Positions 7,312 through 57,860 of a DNA stretch of 64,000 bases are shown here, one piece after another. Position 1 is the stretch's first letter, and each line of letters opens with the position of its first letter. The DNA is from an uncultured Lentisphaerota bacterium (GTDB taxonomy: Bacteria > Verrucomicrobiota > Kiritimatiellia > RFP12 > UBA1067), in assembly GCA_946413265.1 (NCBI GenBank), contig CAMKJU010000009.1, forward strand, positions 1 through 64,000. Reading direction: 5' to 3'. A program made the position numbers and the translations under genes. The notes under the pieces are model-generated. The model saw nothing but the letters and a program-made list of their open reading frames with translations, was not told the origin of the DNA and did not search any database.

Positions 7312-8535
7312 ATGAAAAATTTTCTAATCGCAGTGTTGGTCGCGCCGTGCCTCGCAGGCGCGACGACGCTTGACCGCCAGACGTCCATGGAACAGCGCGC
7401 CGAGGCTTCCTTCGCCTACACCGTCGAAAAGGCGAAGCGACACGACCGCGCGCTCGGCGCCGCGGAACTATTCCATGCCGCCTTCTACTTCTGCGAGACC
7501 GGTCGGCACCTCGACCAGCTCGACATCCTCTTCGGCGTCGCCGCCGAAATGCAGGACCGCGATCCCTCCGTGCGCGACCGCGCCGTACGCGTCGCGTGGT
7601 CGCGCGGCATCGCGGGCGACAGCGCGCCCGCAGCGGTCGTGTGGGACGACCCGCCCGACGTGAACGCCTTCCGACTCACCGTCGCGCACCACGACTTCTG
7701 GGGACGTCCAATGGATACCACCAACCCTCCTTCTGCGGCCTTCTGGGTGCGCGTGACGGACAACGCCTCCACGCCTGAAAAGTTCGCAGCCTTCCGCGCC
7801 GCGTTCAAATCCGCAACCTGCTCCGTCCACGCCACGTCAACAAACATCGCGCTCAAGGCCTCCGGCGAAGATGGCCCGCTCACTCTGGGGGCAGACTCGC
7901 CCTTCGCCGCAGCATCATGCGTCGAGCCTGCGCCTAAGCGCGCGATCTTCGCGGTCAACGGACGCGACATCGGCGCGGAGATCGTCGGCGAGGCGCCTGG
8001 AATCGCCGAATACCGCGCCGAGCGAGCGCGCGTCATCAAGGCCCTCGCCGCCAACCGCATCCCCGTGACGACGCGGCGTGCAGCGACATGGGAGGCGGAA
8101 AGCGGCGCAATCGAGCCTTCGCTCAGGGCGGACGCCGATCCAGGCGCGTTTGGTGGGAAGTTCGTGTGGCTGCCGGGCGAAGTCGGCGGCAAACGCAGCG
8201 GACGCGGCCAGGTCTCGTGGCAGCTCGATGTCCATGCAGCGGGTACGTACCATCTGTGGGGACGCATCTGGGCGCCCACGCCGGACGATGACTCGTTTTT
8301 CGTCTCAGCCTACGCTGGCGAATACCCGCGCGCGAATTCACGCAGCGGAACGATCCTCACGCCGACTGTGTGGCCCACAGGCGTAACGAAGGGACTGTGG
8401 CAGTGGCGTAAGTTCAAGGCCGAGCTGACGCTCCCCGCCGGTCCTGTCGTTCTTACCCTCCACTCCCGCGAAGACGGAACGAAAATCGACAGCCTCTTCC
8501 TAACGTCTGATCCGTCCCAGGAACCCGAAGGTTAA
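7312..8535 (+). CDS. Secreted protein with C-terminal carbohydrate-binding-like domain
   Basis: 407 residues from the ATG; an in-frame GTG two codons upstream is less likely because the -10 box predicts transcription starting at the ATG. A Sec signal spans about 1-18 (MKNFLIAVLVAPCLAGA). The middle has no family I recognise. The C-terminal part, from about 255 to the end, has the beta-sandwich pattern of CBM-like domains in polysaccharide-degrading systems: an opening WEAESG, an aromatic-rich WQLDVHAAGTYHLWGRIWAP and a closing KIDSLFL. It is a lone plus-strand gene, convergent with the pheT transcript. A role in binding glycan at the surface or periplasm is inferred. Confidence 0.75.
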   Translation: MKNFLIAVLVAPCLAGATTLDRQTSMEQRAEASFAYTVEKAKRHDRALGAAELFHAAFYFCETGRHLDQLDILFGVAAEMQDRDPSVRDRAVRVAWSRGIAGDSAPAAVVWDDPPDVNAFRLTVAHHDFWGRPMDTTNPPSAAFWVRVTDNASTPEKFAAFRAAFKSATCSVHATSTNIALKASGEDGPLTLGADSPFAAASCVEPAPKRAIFAVNGRDIGAEIVGEAPGIAEYRAERARVIKALAANRIPVTTRRAATWEAESGAIEPSLRADADPGAFGGKFVWLPGEVGGKRSGRGQVSWQLDVHAAGTYHLWGRIWAPTPDDDSFFVSAYAGEYPRANSRSGTILTPTVWPTGVTKGLWQWRKFKAELTLPAGPVVLTLHSREDGTKIDSLFLTSDPSQEPEG

Positions 8536-26427: not shown

Positions 26428-28215
26428 TTAGATGCGGTTGGGCGTTTCTATGCCGAGAAGATGGAGGCCCGTGGAGAGGACCTTTCCGAACAGCGCGCAG
26501 AGACGCAGACGCGCGTCGCGCACAGCAGGCTCGCTCTTGAGGATTGGCGAGCGCTGGTAGAACGAACTGTAGAGCTGCGCCGTCTGGAAGAGGTAGTCGG
26601 CGAGGACGGACGGCTTGTAGCACTCCGCCGCACGCAGTACGGTGGGCCCGAACTGCAGGAGCTGTAACCCGAGCTGTTTCTCAATCGGAGTTGAGAGCAG
26701 CATCTCACCCGGTAGGGCGGTCGCCCCGCGACCGCCGCTCGGTAGGGCCGCCTCGCCGAAGCGGCCGCCCTCCCCCTCCGCCGCCTTGTCGAGCAGCGAA
26801 CACACGCGCGCGTAGGCGTATTGGAGGTACGGGCCGGAGTTGCCCTCAAGCGCAAGCGCCTTGTCCCAGTTGAAGTCGATGTCGGTAATCGGGTCGTGCG
26901 AGAGATCGGAGTATTTGACCGCGCCGTAGCCGATCTGCTCAGCGAGAGAGATTTGAGCAGGCGTAGCCTGATCCGCTGCGGGGTTCGGGGTGTCCCCGGT
27001 CGTTGTCCGCGCCTTCACGATCTCCAGCGCCCTCCGCACGGCCTCGGCGAGGAGTTCGTCGAGCTTGATGAGGTTGCCTTCGCGCGTGGAAATCGCCTTA
27101 CCGCCGTAACTCATGAGGCCGAACGGCACATGGACGAGCTTGACGCCGGAGTACCCCATCTTCGCCGCGATCGAGAACCACTGCCTGAAATGGAGCTGCT
27201 GGCGGGCGTCGGTCACGTAGATGATGCGCTCCGGGCTGTATTCCTCGACACGCGACTTGACGCATGCGAGGTCGCTCGTCGTGTAGTTGTAGCCGCCGTC
27301 CGACTTGCGGACGATCGCGACGCCGAGCTTCTCGGCCTCGAGGTTCACGATGAGCGCGCCCTCCGACTCGACGGCGAGTCCCATCTCCTGGAGTTTTGCG
27401 ACGACGCCCGGCATCGTGTCATTGTAGTACGACTCGCCGCGGTACGTATCGAACTTAACGCCGAGCTTCGCGTACATTCGGTCGAATTCGCCGATGGAGA
27501 TGTCGATGAAACGCTTCCAGAGCGCGAGGTTGTCGGCATCGCCCTGCTGAAGCTTCACGAGTTCAGCCTTGCACGCCTCCTTCCAGGCGCCGTCCTCTTC
27601 CTTCGCCTTCGCGGCGGAGAGCACGTAGCACTTCTCGAGGTTGGCGACGGTGAGGTTGTCGCGCTCTTCCTGCGTGAGGCACTCGCGGTAGCCCTTGATG
27701 AGGATGCCGAACTGCGTGCCCCAATCGCCGAGATGGTTGTCGGCGATAACCCCGTAGCCGAGAGCGCGGTAGATGCGGTCGATCGCGTTGCCGATCACGG
27801 TGGAGCGGATGTGGCCGATGTGCATCTGCTTGGCGGCGTTCGGGGATGAGTAGTCGATGACGACGCGCTGACCCGCGCCCGTCTGCGGAATGCCCGTGTG
27901 CGCATCGGCGGCGAGCGCGGCGAGGCGCGCTGCGATCCAGTCGGTCGAAACCGTGATGTTGAGGAAGCCCGGACCGGCGAGCTCGAACTTCGCGATGAAG
28001 TCTGGCCGGTCGGCCTCAAGGCGCGCGAATACGGCCTCGGCGATCTTGCGCGGCGGCATGTGGAGCGTCTTCGCGGCAGCCAGCGCGTCGTTGCACTGGA
28101 AATCGCCGAACTTGGCGTCCGTCGCGGGAAGCGCCCGCACGTTGGAGAAATCGTTTCCGGGGAAAGCGGCTTCAAAGCCAGCCTTCAGCCAGCCCTCAAT
28201 CGAATCGCATGCCAT
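26428..28215 (-). CDS. argS: Arginyl-tRNA synthetase, with a translated palindromic repeat
   Basis: 595 residues, class Ia. The N-terminal Add-1-like domain is followed by the HIGH motif in AAKQMHIGHIRSTVIG near 108-123, the LGDWGTQFG strand, ISTREGNLIKLDELL (the KMSKS-like region, degenerate as usual in ArgRS) near 375-389, and the DALR anticodon-binding domain at the end. It charges tRNA-Arg. At about residues 484-502, in the early DALR domain, two palindromic repeat units are translated as a Gly/Arg/Ala/Leu-rich loop (GRFGEAALPSGGRGATALPG). The enzyme is essential, so the insert must be tolerated. The start codon overlaps the def stop by one base (TGATG). Confidence 0.97.
   Translation of the reverse strand: MACDSIEGWLKAGFEAAFPGNDFSNVRALPATDAKFGDFQCNDALAAAKTLHMPPRKIAEAVFARLEADRPDFIAKFELAGPGFLNITVSTDWIAARLAALAADAHTGIPQTGAGQRVVIDYSSPNAAKQMHIGHIRSTVIGNAIDRIYRALGYGVIADNHLGDWGTQFGILIKGYRECLTQEERDNLTVANLEKCYVLSAAKAKEEDGAWKEACKAELVKLQQGDADNLALWKRFIDISIGEFDRMYAKLGVKFDTYRGESYYNDTMPGVVAKLQEMGLAVESEGALIVNLEAEKLGVAIVRKSDGGYNYTTSDLACVKSRVEEYSPERIIYVTDARQQLHFRQWFSIAAKMGYSGVKLVHVPFGLMSYGGKAISTREGNLIKLDELLAEAVRRALEIVKARTTTGDTPNPAADQATPAQISLAEQIGYGAVKYSDLSHDPITDIDFNWDKALALEGNSGPYLQYAYARVCSLLDKAAEGEGGRFGEAALPSGGRGATALPGEMLLSTPIEKQLGLQLLQFGPTVLRAAECYKPSVLADYLFQTAQLYSSFYQRSPILKSEPAVRDARLRLCALFGKVLSTGLHLLGIETPNRI
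26711..26766. repeat. Two GGTAGGG palindromic units inside argS
   Basis: GGTAGGGCGGTCGCC... at 26711-26736 and GGTAGGGCCGCCTCGCC... at 26741-26766, both 26 bases and in the same orientation, separated by GCTC. Both are open in the argS frame. Confidence 0.9.
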
Positions 28216-32100: not shown

Positions 32101-32943
32101 TTAGGATCTCTCCTGTTTGGTTGGTCCGAATATTTTACAATTTTCGGCGCGGAAACGCAATAGAGAAACGAGGATAAACGCGATTCCCAGAAAAACAAGC
32201 CCGATGGAGATCGTCTGGCCGATCGACAGCGACCCGACGCGCTGGCGCATGTCGTCACGGAGAAATTCAATGCAAAAGCGTATGCAGGCGTATCCTATGA
32301 GATAGCAGCCCGTCGTGAATCCTGGCCGTTTCCTCCAGTTCCGCAGGAACACGAATAGCAGCACTGCGAAGAGACACAGCACCGCCGCCGCCTCGAAGAG
32401 CTGCGTGGGCAGGACGGGCAGCGCCGATTGCGCGGACTCCGGGATCAGCCCGCCGTCCACCTGCGCCACCCACGCCGGCGAACGACGCGGGAAAGCCACG
32501 GCGCAGGCGCAGTCCGACACCCTCCCGTAGCAGCAGCCGTAGAAGAAACACCCCACCCTGCCAAATGCGTGCGCAAGGGGAATGACCGTCACGAAGAGGT
32601 CCGCAACCTGTGCCATGCGCTCGCGGCGCACGCGGCACCAGACGAAGAACACCACAATCGCGAGGATCAGCCCGCCGTAGAACACCAGCCCGCCCTGCCA
32701 GACCTTGAACACGGACAGCGGGTTGGCGGCGAATTCGCGTCCCCAGAACTCGCGCACGTACTCAAGCCGCGCTCCGACGATGCCGCTGAACATCATCAGC
32801 ATCAGGAGGTTCGAGAGCGGCTCCGCCGCGCGTCCCGTGCGGCGGCACAGCCATGAAAGCACCTGCCACGCGGCGATGAAGCCAAGCGCCATGCAGAAGC
32901 CGTATGTCTTAATAGGCAGGCCAGCGATGAGATCGGGATGCAT
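32101..32943 (-). CDS. lgt: Prolipoprotein diacylglyceryl transferase
   Basis: 280 residues, about seven TM helices. Conserved parts are seen: GIVGARLEYVREFW near 54-67 (including the Arg-Tyr region), FKVWQGGLVFYGGLI near 79-93, and the Lgt signature HAFGRVGCFFYGCCYG near 124-139. A second signature around YACIRFCIEFLRDD comes near the end. Lgt attaches diacylglycerol from phosphatidylglycerol to the lipobox Cys of lipoproteins in the inner membrane. That suits the many predicted lipoproteins here. The stop of the upstream gene and the lgt start overlap (TGATG). Confidence 0.95.
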   Translation of the reverse strand: MHPDLIAGLPIKTYGFCMALGFIAAWQVLSWLCRRTGRAAEPLSNLLMLMMFSGIVGARLEYVREFWGREFAANPLSVFKVWQGGLVFYGGLILAIVVFFVWCRVRRERMAQVADLFVTVIPLAHAFGRVGCFFYGCCYGRVSDCACAVAFPRRSPAWVAQVDGGLIPESAQSALPVLPTQLFEAAAVLCLFAVLLFVFLRNWRKRPGFTTGCYLIGYACIRFCIEFLRDDMRQRVGSLSIGQTISIGLVFLGIAFILVSLLRFRAENCKIFGPTKQERS

Positions 32944-33356
32944 CAGAGTCCTTTCAGAATTTCAATGGCCAGGCGCGTCGGCGCCGCGTTCGTCTCCATG
33001 AGCCACCATCCACCGGCCCTCTGCGAGGAAATCAGCTTGATCGCAATCCGCTCTCGCGTGAGCCCGTTCGTGGCAAAGAGATCCCCCTGGTAGGGCCGCC
33101 TCGCCGAGGCGGCCGCCGCGTTCGTGCCGCCACCCTGGTAGGGCGGTCGCCCCGCGACCGCCGCCGTGTTCGTGCCGCCACCCTGGTAGGGCGGTCGCCC
33201 CGCGACCGCCGAAACATGCGCCGCAAGCCACCGCTCGCCCAACGCGATGGCGTGGTCCACCTCGTTCTGGACGGACGGCTCAAGCGGTCCGTCCGGCTGC
33301 GGTAGTGGCTGAATACCAAATGTTGCAGCAAACAGTATTGCCAAACCGCTCTTCAT
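32943..33356 (-). CDS. Small secreted protein carrying three tandem palindromic repeats
   Basis: 137 residues. A Sec signal (about 1-17) is followed by a short helical part (EVDHAIALGERWLAAH near 32-47), three repeat-derived segments (AVAGRPPYQGGGTNTA, then two close variants, about 50-93), and a C-terminal ISSQRAGGWWLMETNAAPTR region near 110-129. The flanking parts resemble a terpene-cyclase-type QW helix repeat, but this is a weak guess. Roughly a third of the mature protein comes from repeats. It has its own promoter (33388-33393) and is coupled to lgt by a TGATG overlap. Confidence 0.6.
   Translation of the reverse strand: MKSGLAILFAATFGIQPLPQPDGPLEPSVQNEVDHAIALGERWLAAHVSAVAGRPPYQGGGTNTAAVAGRPPYQGGGTNAAAASARRPYQGDLFATNGLTRERIAIKLISSQRAGGWWLMETNAAPTRLAIEILKGL
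33089..33210. repeat. Three 48-base tandem units of the GGTAGGG palindrome in one gene
   Basis: Palindromic cores start at 33089, 33137 and 33185, an exact 48-base period. Each unit is a 26-base GGTAGGG hairpin plus a 22-base spacer containing TTCGTGCCGCCACCCT. The last two cores are identical; the first has a different stem (GGCCGCCTCGCCGAGGCGGCC) with compensating changes on both arms. Forty-eight is divisible by three, so each unit adds 16 residues in frame. Confidence 0.9.
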
Positions 33357-51783: not shown

Positions 51784-53796
51784 CTAACGGGCTACGACCG
51801 GAAAGAGGTAGCCGCCTGTCCAAGCCGGTACTGGTGGTAAGGTCACGAGGACATCGGCACCGTCGCGCGTGACATCAAGCACAACGTCTTCCGCGTCAAA
51901 CATCGACCACACCGCCTTCGTCGCATCCGCAGGAACTCCGCGCAGGCGCATCCGCACGGACGGCGTGCGCCCGATCGACGTGTTCACGAACACCACGGAC
52001 GCGAGAGAACCATCCTTCCGCACGCGCGGTTGAACGAAGGAGCGCGTCGGCGTCTCCAGAAGAACCGGCGACTTGCCGTGCGACGCCCAGTCCGCCAGAC
52101 GGTGGAGCTGCCCCACCCTGTCGCCCGACGCGATCGCGAGCGCCGCCGTGAACGCATGTGTCCCAAACACCACGCGACGGCGGCCCTCCTTCGTCTCGAA
52201 CATCACCGCCGCATATCCCGGCAGGTTCAACGGCGCGTTGTTCGCGTCGCTGTAATATTCGGAAAAGGCCACGGCTCCCGGAGCGGGCTTCAAGAAGAGC
52301 GTCTGACCCGACACCGGCGTTTCGCACGCCTTGAAGCCTTTGTTCACGGGTACGGACAAGAACCGCTCGCGCAGATTCCCGTTGGCGGCTGCAAAGCCCG
52401 TAAGCCCGATTTCCGCGCCGTATCCGGCCTTGAAGAGGGTTTCCGCCGCTGCGCCGTCGATCAGCAAATCTTCGGCGAGAAGCTGCTCCACGGCCTCCTT
52501 GCCCGCTTCAACGGCATCCTTCGCTGCGGTCGTGGTGACGATGCGCGCGAGGTCCGAACGCGCACCGGGAATGAGCGGCTTGAGGGGCAGGGAACCAGTC
52601 AGAAGCTGGACTGGAGGATCGCCCGCAAACCCATAACCGCAACGCACCGCGCCTTCGTTCAGCGCCACGTAGCGCTTCATCATCGCCGCGTTGCGCGCGA
52701 GCGGCGCAAGAATCTCGTCGCCGTACCATTCCGGCGTCTCGAATCCGGCGTCCATCACGAGCGCGGAAATGGAGTTCATGCCCTGCGCAAGCGACTCCAG
52801 TGCCTCAAGGAGCACGCCCTGTCCTGTGCGGCAGGCGAAGGAGCGCGGACACGACTCGATCTCCGGACAGATTCTGTCGATGAACGGCAAGGGGCCGATC
52901 GTGTCGATCTGGAGTGCCAGCGTATACGCCTTCCCGATCTGCGCGCGCGCGTCGCTGTCGAAGTACGCGCCCGCGCCGGGACGCATCCCCACGGGCAGGC
53001 CCGTCGCCGCATGGTGCGCCTCGTAGAGAAGGCGGTGTTCGGGGAAGCAACGTCCCGGCTGTTGCTGGCACATCCGCGTTTCAGGGGACGCCGCGTGGAC
53101 CGCCTCGGCGATCACGCGCACCAGCTCGGCCTCGCCCTCAAACGCGAACGCGCGCCAGCGGGCGGCGAGCGCGGCGTCGGTCTTCATTTCCTCGACCAGC
53201 TGCTTGCGCGTGCGCTTCTTGCCTTCCTTCTCGGCGAACTTCCCCAAACAGTATTCGCAGTGGCAGCCCCAGCCAGGGCCTCCGTGGTTGACGATGCGGA
53301 TATCGTCGTCGATCCACGCAGAATAAGGACGCATCGCGGCGGCATAGAGCGTGGCCATCTCCTTCATGTACGCAAGGAATCCCGGCGCGCGGAAGCAGTT
53401 GCACCCCTTCGCTACGGCCCCGTTCGCCGACGTGAATCCCTGCCACGTCATGCCGGTGTTGTCCGCATAGTAGAGGAAAGAGTCGCCGTGCCCGATCGTC
53501 GCCTGTATCTGGAGCGACGGCAGAATGCCGATCTTGCGCAGGTCATCCGACGCCTTCGCGAGCCGTTGGGCGGCGGCACGGTGTTCCTCCATCTTCGGGA
53601 AACTGATGCCCGTCGAGAACCACACCTCGTCGACGCCGGCACGGTACTTCGCGAACTGCTCGCGCAGTCCGTTCCATACCTCTTCTCTGTCGGTGTGGGG
53701 CTTGCGCAGGCGGATCGCGGAAAACGGGATCGCGTCGCCATACGCGACCCCGACCGACGCGATTGCAAGACTTGCCAGTTTCGCGAAGTGCTGCAT
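51784..53796 (-). CDS. Secreted TIM-barrel-like protein, possible glycoside hydrolase
   Basis: 670 residues with a Sec signal (about 1-20). The first half has the periodicity of a (beta/alpha)8 barrel: VDEVWFSTGISFPKMEEHR near 55, SAWIDDDIRIVNHGGPGWGCHC near 164-185, SPETRMCQQQPG near 240 and DTIGPLPFIDRICPEIES near 300. Acidic residues at strand ends could be catalytic. A Cys-rich CHCEYCLGKF may bind a metal. The C-terminal third is beta-rich. It lies 12 bases after the GH2 beta-galactosidase, so they are one operon and probably act on one substrate. No CAZy family is identified with confidence. Confidence 0.65.
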   Translation of the reverse strand: MQHFAKLASLAIASVGVAYGDAIPFSAIRLRKPHTDREEVWNGLREQFAKYRAGVDEVWFSTGISFPKMEEHRAAAQRLAKASDDLRKIGILPSLQIQATIGHGDSFLYYADNTGMTWQGFTSANGAVAKGCNCFRAPGFLAYMKEMATLYAAAMRPYSAWIDDDIRIVNHGGPGWGCHCEYCLGKFAEKEGKKRTRKQLVEEMKTDAALAARWRAFAFEGEAELVRVIAEAVHAASPETRMCQQQPGRCFPEHRLLYEAHHAATGLPVGMRPGAGAYFDSDARAQIGKAYTLALQIDTIGPLPFIDRICPEIESCPRSFACRTGQGVLLEALESLAQGMNSISALVMDAGFETPEWYGDEILAPLARNAAMMKRYVALNEGAVRCGYGFAGDPPVQLLTGSLPLKPLIPGARSDLARIVTTTAAKDAVEAGKEAVEQLLAEDLLIDGAAAETLFKAGYGAEIGLTGFAAANGNLRERFLSVPVNKGFKACETPVSGQTLFLKPAPGAVAFSEYYSDANNAPLNLPGYAAVMFETKEGRRRVVFGTHAFTAALAIASGDRVGQLHRLADWASHGKSPVLLETPTRSFVQPRVRKDGSLASVVFVNTSIGRTPSVRMRLRGVPADATKAVWSMFDAEDVVLDVTRDGADVLVTLPPVPAWTGGYLFPVVAR

Positions 53797-53808
53797 TTTC
53801 CGGCCTCC

Positions 53809-56800
53809 TTACTTGTCCGAAATCATCGGCTGGAGTTCGGCCATGGAGGCCCACGGCTGCGACTTGTCCCACGGCGAAAGCGCGTTGAAGCGGATGTACC
53901 GTGCGGACTCCTTCTGCTTGAACGTGATCTCCGTGAGGTCGTCCGTGTTTGCAAGCTCGCCTTCCGCGACCGTGCGCCAGGTCTTCGCGTCGTCGCTCAG
54001 CTCGAGGCGGTAGCGGCGGACGCGTCCGTGGTCCATGTCCTGACGCGGAACGGCGATGACGCCTTTGAGCGCGAGCGTCTTGCCGTAGTCGCCGATGACG
54101 AAGTGCGGATAGCCGGGGTTGCGCTTCTTCCACTGCGTGTGCCAAATGGTCGAGATGTCGCCGTCGAAGGCGTTGCTCGCGCCCTCGCGCTCGCTGGCCT
54201 CGTCGGACGACGCGCCCGCCGCCTTGTAGCGCTTGAACTGCGTGAAGCTGTTCGCGGGCGCGGGCGGGAACGTGAACGGCTCGTCCGAGAGCGCGGTCGT
54301 CACGCGATACGGCACGATCGCGAAGTCGAGGCGGTAGTTCTTCGACGTGTCGATGATGTCGCGCCTCATCGGCCCCGGACCGCAGCTCGCGCCGCCGAGT
54401 CCGCGCGTCTCCGCGAAGATGCCGAACTCGACCTTGGTGATCGGCGGCAGCTCCGGCGGGTGCGAGGCCGCGATGATCTCCGTCGGCGAATATGGAATCG
54501 CGGTGAACGCAAACGGCGCGCCGAGCGTCGCGAAGCCGATTGCGCCCTTCGCGCCCGAGAGCGTCACGGCGTCGGTTTCCTCGAAGTTGTTGGCGTCCTC
54601 GGGACGCGCGTACGGCATCACGAACGTCGTGAGGTCGGTCGTCCAAAGGCCCCTGAACGCGCCGGACTTGCGGTCGCGGTAGTTCTCGAACGGACCGCGT
54701 CCGAACCACTCCACCTGCGCGAAGTCGAGCGGGAGGACGAAACGCCAGCCGATGCGCGGCAGCTCGCGGTTGAAGCCGACGGGACGGATCTCGCTGCGGC
54801 ACGACACCTTGCCGTCGCCATTGACGCGCCAGCGCAGGACGGCGCGGAAGTACGGCGCCGAAACACGCGACGGCGCGCCCTTCGCCTCGATGTGTCCGCC
54901 CGGCCGCCCGTAGTTGACCAGCGACTCCTTGGCCTCGCCCCGGCACTCCACCTCCACCGTGAACGCGAGCGCGTGCGCGTCGTCGTCGTCTCTCCAGACC
55001 TCGCCGAAGGAAATCGCCTTCTGTCGGAAGTTGCGCCAGCCGCACTGGCTCCACTGCGCCGCCGGACGGAGCTCGTTCGAGCTCGGCGCACGGTAGGCGT
55101 CCAGCACCATCGGCGCGAGCAGACGCTCCACGCCCTTGACCTTGTACGAGACGAGCGCGCCCGTGGCGCGGTCGAACGCGACCGACGCAACGCCGCCGGT
55201 CGGCACCAGGAACTCGACCCGTCCGTCCTCCTTGCGCACCATCATGTCCATCAGCTTCATCCCGAGCGCCTGCGCGCGCTTGTCGTTCGGCAGGTCGATC
55301 TGGTCGTTGGCGACGACATACCCCTTCTCGATGAAGCCCTCGCTCTCCTTCGCGATGAACTCGTACCGCACGGAAACCGAGTTGCCGGGCTTGTTCGCCT
55401 CATGCGCGGCGGCGGGGAGCTCCACGGTCTTCTCGCCGCGCGGACCGATATCGGAGACATCGATCATCCGCGAGGAAACGGCCTTGCCGTTCACGAGAAC
55501 CGTCTCTTTCACATCGAAACGATTCATGCACCTGAAGAACTGCTTGTTCTTTATGGTGACGGTCTTTATTTCGGCGGGCAGAGGGCTGCCCGCCCTACCG
55601 GCGGCCTCCTGGTAGGGCGGTCGCCCCGCGACCGCCGCGCCATCCGCCACCACCGCAACGGGCTGGTACACGTGCTTGATCTCCCAGTACGCGGGCTCGA
55701 GGGCGCGGTCGGAGAGGATGCAGCCGTTCATCACGAACTGTCCGTCCGTCGGCGCGTCGCCGAAGTCGCCGCCGTAGGCGATGATCATCCGCTCCTCCCA
55801 TTTTCCATTTTCCATTTTACACTTTACACTCTTGTAGAGGCCCTGGTCGACCCAGTCCCAGATGCAGCCGCCGATGATCACGTCGGAACTCTCGAAGGCG
55901 TCCTGGTAGTCCTTCAGGTTGCCCATCGCGTTCATCATGTTGTGCGCGTACTCGCAGAGGAAGTACGGACGCTTCGACTTCGTGTCGGCGGCGCGGCGGC
56001 GGACATGATCGACGGACGGATACATGTTGGAGTCGATGTCGGAGGCCGACCAGTCGCGCTCGTAGTGCGTGGGACGCGACCAGTCGCGAGCGTGTACCGC
56101 GTCGTCGGCCGCCTTGAAGTTCTTGCCGGGGCCCGATTCGTTGCCGTGGCTCCAGAAGAGGACGGACGGATGGTTCTTGTTGCGCTCGACCATGTTCATG
56201 TTGCGCCACACCGTCGCGAGCGTGAAGCGCGGGTCGTGGCTCGACGAGCCCTTCCCGTATCCCATGCCGTGCGTCTCCACGTTCGCCTCATCCATGAGCG
56301 CAATGCCGTTCAGGTCGCAGAGATAGTACCAGTAGTCGTCCTGCGGATAGTGCGAGTTGCGCACGAGCGTGCAGTTCGCGCGCTTCAGGAGCTTCACGTC
56401 CTCCTCCTGGCGCTCGTGCGGACAGTAGTGTCCGAACATCGGATCCGTCTCGTGGCGGTTCGCGCCGCAGAGCTTCACCTTCTTGCCGTTGAGGCAGTAG
56501 CGTCCGTTGATGATCTTGCTTTCGCGGAACCCGAAGAGCGTAGAAACGCATTCGAGCGGCGGGCGCGGGGCGCCCGCCCTACCGACGGCCTCCTGGTAGG
56601 GCGGTCGCCCCGCGACCGCCTCCAGTGAAAGCACGAGCTTGTAACAGTTCGGAGTCTCGTGGCTCCAGAGGCGGGGAGAGTGCAAAGTGTAAAATGTAAA
56701 ATGTAAAATTGAGGAAACGTCATCGTTGTTACGCTCTCGACGCTCCTCTTTCTTTTCCATCGGCACAACATTCCCATCCATGTCGTACAGAGTCGCCTTA

Positions 56801-57690
56801 ACCGCCAAGTCCGCCATTTTACACTTTACATTTTCCATGTTACATTCGCTCTCGACAGAGAGCGTCCAGTCTCCGTCGTACTTGCCCTCCTGCGCCGGCT
56901 TCGCCCGCGCGAAGAAGTCGCGGATGTAGGTCTGCGGACGCCGCACGAGCCACACCGAGCGGAAGATGCCGGAGAGGCGGAACATGTCCTGGTCCTCGAG
57001 GTACGAGCCGTCGCTGTAGCGGTACACCTCCAGTGCCACCGTGTTCTTGCCGGGCTTCACGATGTCCGTCACGTCGTACTCGGCGGCGCAGCGGCTGTCC
57101 TTCGTGAAGCCGACGTACTTCCCGTTCACCCACAGGTAGTAGAAGGAATCGACGCCGTCGAACTTGAGGAACACGCGGTCGCCCTTCCACGACGCGGGCA
57201 GCTCGAAGTCGCGACGGTACGAGCCCACGGGGTTGCGCGCGTCGTAGTTGGTGAAGTTCTTCGGCGGCTCGTCCATCACGTAGGGCGGATTCATCTTGAA
57301 CGGATAGCGGGAGTTCGTGTAGAGCGCCGTGCCCCAGCCGCCCTTGCCGTTCGCGCCGTACGCCTGCCACGAACACGGCACCTTGATCGTCTCCCAGCCG
57401 GAGACGTCATAATCCAGTTTCTCGAAGCCGACCGGACGCAGCGAGGGCTCCTTCACCCACTTGAACTTCCACGCCGTGTCGGAGTCGAGGCAGATCTGCC
57501 GATCCGTCTTCCACGGGAGGATTTCAAGCGCGGCACGTTCATTCGCGAACGGCGCGAACGCCGCGCGCGTCTTCTCGCGACCGAGGCTCATGCGCGAGAG
57601 GTCCTGCCATTCAGTGCCGTCAATGCGGCGTTCTTCCGCGAAAACGGCGCTCAACGCCGCAGCGGCCAACACGAGTGCTGAGGTTTTCAT
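53809..57690 (-). CDS. GH2 beta-galactosidase-like enzyme with five repeat inserts and a C-terminal F5/8 domain
   Basis: 1293 residues; LacZ is about 1020. A Sec signal (about 1-17) leads to the GH2 order: jelly-roll sugar-binding domain (GVDSFYYLWVNGKYVGFTKD near 185), Ig-like domain, TIM barrel with acid/base Glu in WSHGNESG near 515 and nucleophile Glu in FLCEYAHN near 578, then the Bgal_small_N domain. A discoidin/F5-8 type C-like module (from about 1160, ASNAFDGDISTIWHTQW) ends it. Five repeat clusters are translated near residues 282-292, 326-337, 357-378, 620-631 and 685-706. Transcription start is predicted on the ATG. Confidence 0.93.
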   Translation of the reverse strand: MKTSALVLAAAALSAVFAEERRIDGTEWQDLSRMSLGREKTRAAFAPFANERAALEILPWKTDRQICLDSDTAWKFKWVKEPSLRPVGFEKLDYDVSGWETIKVPCSWQAYGANGKGGWGTALYTNSRYPFKMNPPYVMDEPPKNFTNYDARNPVGSYRRDFELPASWKGDRVFLKFDGVDSFYYLWVNGKYVGFTKDSRCAAEYDVTDIVKPGKNTVALEVYRYSDGSYLEDQDMFRLSGIFRSVWLVRRPQTYIRDFFARAKPAQEGKYDGDWTLSVESECNMENVKCKMADLAVKATLYDMDGNVVPMEKKEERRERNNDDVSSILHFTFYTLHSPRLWSHETPNCYKLVLSLEAVAGRPPYQEAVGRAGAPRPPLECVSTLFGFRESKIINGRYCLNGKKVKLCGANRHETDPMFGHYCPHERQEEDVKLLKRANCTLVRNSHYPQDDYWYYLCDLNGIALMDEANVETHGMGYGKGSSSHDPRFTLATVWRNMNMVERNKNHPSVLFWSHGNESGPGKNFKAADDAVHARDWSRPTHYERDWSASDIDSNMYPSVDHVRRRAADTKSKRPYFLCEYAHNMMNAMGNLKDYQDAFESSDVIIGGCIWDWVDQGLYKSVKCKMENGKWEERMIIAYGGDFGDAPTDGQFVMNGCILSDRALEPAYWEIKHVYQPVAVVADGAAVAGRPPYQEAAGRAGSPLPAEIKTVTIKNKQFFRCMNRFDVKETVLVNGKAVSSRMIDVSDIGPRGEKTVELPAAAHEANKPGNSVSVRYEFIAKESEGFIEKGYVVANDQIDLPNDKRAQALGMKLMDMMVRKEDGRVEFLVPTGGVASVAFDRATGALVSYKVKGVERLLAPMVLDAYRAPSSNELRPAAQWSQCGWRNFRQKAISFGEVWRDDDDAHALAFTVEVECRGEAKESLVNYGRPGGHIEAKGAPSRVSAPYFRAVLRWRVNGDGKVSCRSEIRPVGFNRELPRIGWRFVLPLDFAQVEWFGRGPFENYRDRKSGAFRGLWTTDLTTFVMPYARPEDANNFEETDAVTLSGAKGAIGFATLGAPFAFTAIPYSPTEIIAASHPPELPPITKVEFGIFAETRGLGGASCGPGPMRRDIIDTSKNYRLDFAIVPYRVTTALSDEPFTFPPAPANSFTQFKRYKAAGASSDEASEREGASNAFDGDISTIWHTQWKKRNPGYPHFVIGDYGKTLALKGVIAVPRQDMDHGRVRRYRLELSDDAKTWRTVAEGELANTDDLTEITFKQKESARYIRFNALSPWDKSQPWASMAELQPMISDK
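55573..55636. repeat. Facing pair of palindromic units in GH2, copy A
   Basis: A CCCTACC-ended hairpin (55573-55599, core GGCGGGCAGAGGGCTGCCCG), then GGCGGCCTCCT, then a GGTAGGG-headed hairpin (55611-55636). The two units point in opposite directions. The same arrangement, with almost the same spacer, occurs at 56558-56620. Confidence 0.9.
55797..55832. repeat. TTTTCCATTTTACACT-type repeat in GH2, copy A
   Basis: An A/T-rich stretch of repeated CATTTT/TACACT steps in a GC-rich gene, translated as SVKCKMENGKW. It stands out by composition. Two more copies lie at 56680-56712 and 56815-56846. Confidence 0.85.
56558..56620. repeat. Facing pair of palindromic units in GH2, copy B
   Basis: CCCTACC-ended hairpin (56558-56583), GACGGCCTCCT, GGTAGGG-headed hairpin (56595-56620). 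It differs from copy A mainly in the loop and stem of the left hairpin. Confidence 0.9.
56680..56712. repeat. AAAATGTAAAATG-type repeat in GH2, copy B
   Basis: GTGCAAAGTGTAAAATGTAA and following bases, the reverse orientation of the TTTTACACT family, translated as SILHFTFYTLHS. The change of strand shows both orientations can stay open. Confidence 0.85.
56815..56846. repeat. TTTTACACTTTACATTTT-type repeat in GH2, copy C
   Basis: Same family and orientation as 55797-55832, translated as NMENVKCKM. Confidence 0.85.
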
Positions 57691-57783: not shown

Positions 57784-57860
57784 GTCCCCGTCGGGGAAGC
57801 GGCGCTCTCGCCGCTTCAAATCAGGAAGCGACATGAGTGTCGCTTCCCCGAAGGGGAACG
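57784..57860. repeat. Cluster of four hairpins, CCCCGTCGGGG and GGAAGCG types
   Basis: Within about 75 bases: TCCCCGTCGGGGA, AAGCGGCGCTCTCGCCGCTT, GGAAGCGACATGAGTGTCGCTTCC and CCCCGAAGGGG. Lies in the gap 57726-57928 upstream of the GH2 promoter and downstream of the porin gene. No gene in the gap. Confidence 0.8.

Follow-up and report, generated by a model that had tools for sequence, protein, structure and literature searches.

The 64,000-nt window analysed here (contig CAMKJU010000009.1, assembly GCA_946413265.1) comes from a rumen Kiritimatiellae metagenome-assembled genome (MAG), and contains a beta-galactosidase-like gene of glycoside hydrolase family 2 (GH2) that carries, within one open frame, two facing pairs of repetitive extragenic palindrome (REP) elements and three A/T-rich arrays of tandem heptamers. 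We consider it probable that this gene, which is under constraint, offers permissive slots that are visited repeatedly by GTAG-type REP dimers and by many families of heptamer arrays, with selection filtering the outcome. The evidence lies in the slot occupants, which differ among orthologues, and in the strand that arrays within genes present to translation. GH2 exemplifies a general process. The features of the gene are as follows.

53809..57690, minus strand: GH2 beta-galactosidase-like gene, a single open frame of 1293 aa
56137..56139, minus strand: codon of E518, the putative acid/base, GNE motif in WSHGNESG, by homology with LacZ-type GH2 enzymes; outside all inserts
55951..55953, minus strand: codon of E580, the putative nucleophile, CEYAHN in FLCEYAHN, by homology; outside all inserts
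53833..54216, minus strand: predicted C-terminal F5/8 type C domain, residues 1159-1286, from the domain search
55573..55636, no strand assigned: GTAG-tagged REP dimer, GGTAGGGC-GGTCGC-CCC-GCGACC-GCC plus inverted partner, encoding AVAGRPPYQEAAGRAGSPLPAE; slot 5, at the LacZ domain-4 turn
56558..56620, no strand assigned: second GTAG-tagged REP dimer, encoding AVAGRPPYQEAVGRAGAPRPP; slot 3, in the hairpin turn preceding the TIM barrel
55797..55832, plus strand: A/T heptamer array, copy A, read by the gene as SVKCKMENGKWE; slot 4, in the TIM-barrel domain
56680..56712, minus strand: A/T heptamer array, copy B, inverted relative to copies A and C, read by the gene as SILHFTFYTLHS; replaces a predicted beta-strand of the orthologues
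56815..56846, plus strand: A/T heptamer array, copy C, read by the gene as MENVKCKM; slot 1

The GH2 gene and its five inserts

A domain search of the GH2 protein returned Glyco_hydro_2_N, Glyco_hydro_2, Glyco_hydro_2_C, LacZ_4, Bgal_small_N and F5/8 type C, and the nearest solved structures are the beta-galactosidases 3bga, 6sd0 and LacZ. Given these GH2 domains and the two catalytic glutamates, the enzyme is probably of the LacZ type. With a ratio of nonsynonymous to synonymous substitutions (dN/dS) among orthologues of 0.15-0.37, the gene is constrained by purifying selection. A sequence-only reading of this stretch had described five open inserts of two unrelated families in one GH2 frame, sparing both catalytic glutamates, with the A/T type in both orientations. 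This is borne out by the open frame and by a repeat search that recovered all five inserts, as two palindrome pairs (D2/I1/I5; 94% alike) and three A/T repeats (D1/I2/I3), with copy B in the opposite orientation to the other two and with E518 and E580, as assigned by homology, lying outside every insert. The same reading attributed an excess of about 270 residues over LacZ partly to the inserts; the arithmetic is right (1293 versus 1023 residues), but by comparison with empty orthologue alleles the inserts contribute only about 57 residues, and the F5/8 type C domain explains more of the surplus than they do.

In each half of a palindrome pair, GGTAGGGC precedes a palindrome of the kind GGTCGC-CCC-GCGACC-GCC, so that a GTAG tag adjoins the palindrome, and the halves face each other. 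These are properties of REP sequences and of bacterial interspersed mosaic elements (BIMEs): a GTAG tag with an imperfect palindrome (GGTAGGGCGGTCGCCCCGCGACCGCC), inverted pairing in both GH2 copies, and dispersal in high copy, with at least 50 scored relatives of the palindrome in the 4.7 Mb genome. The tag differs from the CGTC of Rickettsia palindromic elements, and the location is not the usual, mainly intergenic one, since about 19 copies lie in genes and 13 between them in a 433 kb sample that includes the window.

The A/T inserts are real repeats, as had been proposed, although their description has to be corrected to that of tandem heptamer arrays, built of the units CATTTTA, CACTTTA and CATTTTC. 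Their 16-mer core, CATTTTACACTTTACA, has 31 exact copies in the window's own genome versus 0 for a reversed control, 37 and 30 copies in two sister species, and is present in 16 of 144 relatives; within the window the family was found in the GH2 gene only. These counts, together with the relatives of the palindrome, led us to reject chance repeats. It is most improbable that the inserts are removed from the RNA or protein in the manner of introns or inteins: they are in-frame, stop-free and too short, lack splice or intein domains, and an Rfam search of the window returned only a tRNA and no intron.

Turnover of slot occupants among orthologues

Orthologues of the GH2 gene were drawn from rumen Kiritimatiellae MAGs and aligned, with up to 10 per slot. 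The alignment places the inserts in four slots, which hold at least five repeat families and show many differences of presence and absence. Slot 1 contains two A/T arrays in the window's species, and a CGGGCAAGATGCCCG REP pair (ACGGGCAAGATGCCCGT-type) in L099 and L108; copy B is confined, among the orthologues compared, to the window's species. At slot 3, the REP dimer of the window is replaced by (GGGGAAC)n in L101 and by a single REP in L100, and six orthologues (L099, L108, L103, L107, L109 and L044) are empty there, with a short turn such as VQDGKT. The A/T array of slot 4 is common to the window, L099, L108 and L101; L107 has a different REP pair there, and the empty alleles (L102, L103 and L100) read KNKDGK or a similar sequence. 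Slot 5, filled by the REP dimer in the window, holds another REP pair in L099 and only one REP in L107, and is empty in L101, L102, L103, L109 and L044. Filled and empty alike, the allele lengths within each slot are equal modulo 3, so that the frame-shifting changes of copy number typical of phase variation are not seen between species. Together with the low dN/dS, this agrees with the earlier suggestion of selection against frame loss. The alignments show that the slots turn over between repeat families in a gene that, to judge from its substitutions, stays constrained.

The possibility that the inserts are assembly artefacts, or that the gene is decaying, deserves mention, since the genome is a draft MAG and one orthologous copy (L108, from G010) has a frame-breaking 82-nt gap at gene position 1682-1764, across the nucleophile region, representing either a broken copy or an assembly error. 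We regard this explanation as very improbable, in view of a slot-4 array common to separate assemblies (L099, L101 and L108), the dN/dS of 0.15-0.37 and the full 1293-aa open frame. Introns or inteins, a pseudogene and an assembly artefact were accordingly all considered and rejected.

The high density of inserts had also been taken to suggest tolerance of surface loops. Four of the five inserts fit a tolerance of loops, given the turn-like empty alleles VQDGKT and KNKDGK and the placement of both REP dimers in coil between predicted strands. Copy B does not, as its SILHFTFYTLHS stands where orthologues have the strand FTVKSPKLWS and is itself predicted to form a strand; for this reason we no longer hold that every one of the five inserts forms a surface loop. 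The structure prediction that the sequence-only reading had called for thus placed the REP dimers in coil and copy B in a strand, in a low-confidence AlphaFold model of residues 1-1150 (mean predicted local distance difference test score 56, predicted template modelling score 0.46, whole-chain TM score of about 0.33 to beta-galactosidases) that was used for local secondary structure only.

The coding strand of heptamer arrays

Short tandem arrays in the sampled genome are concentrated at a period of 7 (15 segments), with 6 segments at period 8, 5 at period 9 and none at periods 4, 5, 6, 10, 11 or 13. Heptamer families are numerous, and include GGGGAAC, AACCACA, AAGCTCC, AAACTCG, GTTAGTG and others. 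The short tandemly repeated repetitive (STRR) sequences of cyanobacteria have the same heptamer period. Like them, the arrays described here are dispersed 7-nt tandem arrays of several families; they are not mainly intergenic, in that GGGGAAC-family arrays lie in genes in 34 of 40 cases in G064, from a second genus of the family, and in 10 of 12 in the window's own genome. An 8-nt unit (TTTCAACC) also forms three arrays between genes within 5 kb, at L130 14575, 16797 and 19095.

Arrays of the GGGGAAC family within genes are read in the GGGGAAC sense in a ratio of 9:1 in the window's own genome and 33:1 in G064 (p=4e-9), and the six intergenic arrays of G064 show no co-orientation. The few intergenic arrays of the two genomes are divided into 3 co-oriented and 4 opposite, versus 46:2 for the arrays in genes among all those examined (Fisher p=0.001). 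Neither strand of GGGGAAC has a stop codon, and therefore stop avoidance or frame survival cannot explain the bias. Array starts use all three phases (16/9/16), and because 7=1 mod 3, all three frames of one strand yield a single cyclic heptapeptide. GGGGAAC encodes GERGTGN, a hydrophilic, soluble and flexible peptide, and its opposite strand VPRSPFP; AACCACA encodes NHKPQTT, and AAACTCG encodes KLETRNS. Among all period-7 arrays examined, the more hydrophilic strand is the one read in 69 of the 81 that lie in genes, a sum that is not an independent test where the other strand has stops, and in which some entries are mutual orthologues. The few antisense-type exceptions include L035, where the hydrophobic reading abuts an apparent membrane segment, and GH2 copy B, which lies in a strand. 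The strand bias in genes would follow if insertion is undirected and selection then acts on the encoded peptide.

The A/T family differs in its relation to stop codons. Read in the gene sense, three TGTAAAG units place a TAA in each of the three frames over a length of 21 nt, and at L015, L016, L027 and L039 the array supplies the gene's own stop codon. Mid-gene A/T copies persist as short arrays in a single open frame, or with TGG instead of TGT. Of 17 A/T copies overlapping genes in the window's own genome, 16 are co-oriented with the gene, and the bias is weaker among relatives. A whole-heptamer change in length, of 14 nt, separates L014 from L098. Seven A/T arrays (L014, L021, L022, L024, L028, L031 and L036) occupy spacers 1-16 nt past a stop codon, co-oriented and 15-50 nt ahead of the next gene.

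An alternative origin of the strand bias is that arrays are made or inserted by a process tied to transcription or to an RNA intermediate, with no role for peptide selection. Such coupling would account for the co-orientation of A/T arrays in spacers just past stop codons, and the G-rich heptamers of Xanthomonas likewise lie on the sense strand near stop codons (Rehm et al., PMC4692102). It is at odds with the mixed orientation of the intergenic GGGGAAC arrays as opposed to those in genes, and with the location of antisense-type readings where a hydrophobic peptide fits, as at L035 and GH2 copy B, and we consider it unlikely. It is more doubtful still that the repeats are kept for a function in the nucleic acid, with coding incidental: for the A/T arrays, a 3' element or a stop cassette acting in the RNA; for GGGGAAC, a G-quadruplex; and for the REPs, hairpins. 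The three-frame TAA of the A/T units and the stops they supply could be read in this way, as could the G-quadruplex potential of the GGGGAAC arrays (compare PMC4692102). However, mid-gene arrays vary among sister species, where they are missing or swapped for unrelated repeats, which a conserved element would not tolerate.

Proposed mechanism

In the account that we prefer, of constrained genes whose permissive slots receive repeats under selective filtering, insertion would be largely undirected, and persistence within a gene would require that the frame be kept, as it is in the alleles compared. It would be favoured in a turn or other tolerant stretch, as homology indicates for most inserts, and would require an acceptable encoded peptide, as the strand bias suggests. 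Heptamer arrays would be pre-adapted to these demands, in that only strand and total length should matter; phase would be irrelevant because the seven-residue peptide of one strand does not change with the frame. Once in place, arrays lengthen or shorten by whole heptamers, as seen between species, and one repeat family can replace another at the same place, as the slots show. The REPs, possibly including the GGTAGGGC class, would be moved by REP-associated tyrosine transposase (RAYT)-type enzymes.

Several observations weigh against this account. The co-orientation of A/T arrays in spacers just after stop codons is not explained by peptide selection. In a stricter scan, only 2 of 10 pure TGTAAAG-type in-gene arrays have the hydrophilic reading, as stops restrict them, and a simple hydrophilic-strand rule was dropped for this pure A/T family on account of that interference. 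The intergenic GGGGAAC controls are few (about 7), and the gene calls come from a home-made, codon-usage based gene finder, for which sampled stretches of the window's own genome served as training data (locus L122 reads N). Filled alleles usually lack 17-23 nt of the empty loop, indicating replacement rather than mere interruption, so that simple insertion does not suffice as an explanation. Among the subset of Y1 transposase matches that was fetched, from incomplete MAGs, none was a RAYT with GGTAGGGC REPs at its flanks.

A bolder reading, which we find plausible and put forward tentatively, is that heptamer arrays furnish loop peptides whatever the frame: they would enter genes at any point, survive only as the strand that encodes a soluble heptapeptide, give way to other heptamer or REP families at a given slot, and so keep rewriting the loops of essential enzymes. 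Ohno reportedly argued in 1987 that oligomeric repeats give the same reading in every frame if the unit length is not a multiple of three. His idea (Ohno 1987, cited in PMC2759123) concerned the origin of coding sequence, whereas here the insertion into modern enzymes is ongoing; if the loop-peptide reading is true, the arrays would be a living version of that origin, and they provide a test bed for the idea that repeat units that are not multiples of three become protein.

Other host genes

The sequence-only reading implied that GH2 was special in its inserts, which is not supported. GH2 is the densest insert host in the genome sample, and other genes of the genome also hold three or more inserts. 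Of 20 host proteins checked, Pfam recognises 18, and in many the insert falls within a domain. Those recognised include MetG, glutamate synthase, a PfkB-type kinase and GH127, and in G064 a Glu/Gln-tRNA synthetase, a large class I synthetase with DUF5915, NuoF, MutL and riboflavin synthase. In one slot of an ELM1-like gene (L120:9297-10301), two species have AAGCTCC units, a third has AACCACA and a fourth AAACTCG; at another slot of this gene, the window's own species has heptamers where a sister species has a REP pair, and a whole-heptamer length change of 21 nt separates species. An M1 peptidase gene (L120:13063-15681) has a 102-nt REP..REP insert that is missing from two relatives. A GGGGAAC-type array is present in the MetG of three species, and that of a fourth is 30 nt shorter at this point. 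The PfkB-type kinase and a second protein have arrays at the same slot in both genera, which may reflect either shared descent or parallel insertion. The MutL gene of G064 (L269:958-2742), the most heptamer-rich genome seen, has a GGGGAAC array between its domains.

Comparison with known systems

Intragenic REPs are already known. GTAG-tagged REPs occur in genes as head-to-head dimers that code for 20-30 aa, a gene sometimes holding two of the insertions, and are most frequent in Opitutus terrae, a member of the Planctomycetes-Verrucomicrobia-Chlamydiae (PVC) bacteria, with loops suggested as the tolerant sites (Di Nocera et al. 2013, PMC3733652). The GH2 dimers share with these the GTAG tag, the palindrome and the head-to-head pairing; unlike in that study, the occupants of slots are here compared across orthologues and change family, heptamers share the slots, and no RAYT of the class was found. 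Rickettsia palindromic elements, which carry CGTC tags (PMC3733652), are alike as in-frame palindromic inserts in many unrelated proteins, and differ in their tag and in not being mixed with heptamers.

The G-rich heptamers GGGAATC and GGGGA(C/T)T of Xanthomonas and Nostoc, nearly identical to GGGGAAC, form dispersed arrays, of which 7-11% and about 32% are intragenic (Rehm et al. 2015, PMC4692102), versus about 85% here, with one coding strand. TAACTGA repeats share the heptamer period and three-frame stops in one orientation with the A/T arrays, but differ in sequence and in location, being mostly intergenic and upstream of starts (MacGregor 2015, PMC4679880). In the open-licence papers searched, we found no description of a coding-strand rule, of slot turnover between families, or of such arrays in Kiritimatiellae.

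Repeats are usually thought to be purged from bacterial genes, whereas here whole families lie mostly inside conserved genes, on one strand, with occupants that differ between sister species. This provides a natural experiment, and a countable one, in which peptides and loops enzymes tolerate, and a catalogue of permissive insertion sites. It also sharply poses the question of what copies heptamer arrays around the genome.

Other REP classes and neighbouring features

Several RAYT-like Y1 transposase genes of the window's own genome and genus are flanked by their own REP classes. The CGGGCAAGATGCCCG class, found in slot 1 of L099 and L108, matches repeats around a Y1 transposase gene of the same genus (L153). 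At L134 (G000:C41), a Y1 transposase open reading frame at about 8190-8462 has CTGGGAA-GCCGCCATCTTGGCGGC repeats on both sides, a RAYT-like arrangement. Close upstream of the GH2 start, window positions 57785-57857 hold a REP pair of another class (GGGGAAGCGGCG..CGCCGCTTC / GAAGCGACATGAGTGTCGCTTC), and the Y1 transposase genes of three sister genomes (L135-L137) are flanked by REPs of that class. Elsewhere in the window, three GGTAGGGC REPs stand in a row at 33089-33210, within a called 138-aa gene (32943-33356), and further in-gene REPs occur at 26711/26741, 43600 and 60170. On the plus strand opposite GH2, positions 52030-56628 contain a 1532-aa open frame that is most likely a by-product of high-GC codon usage.

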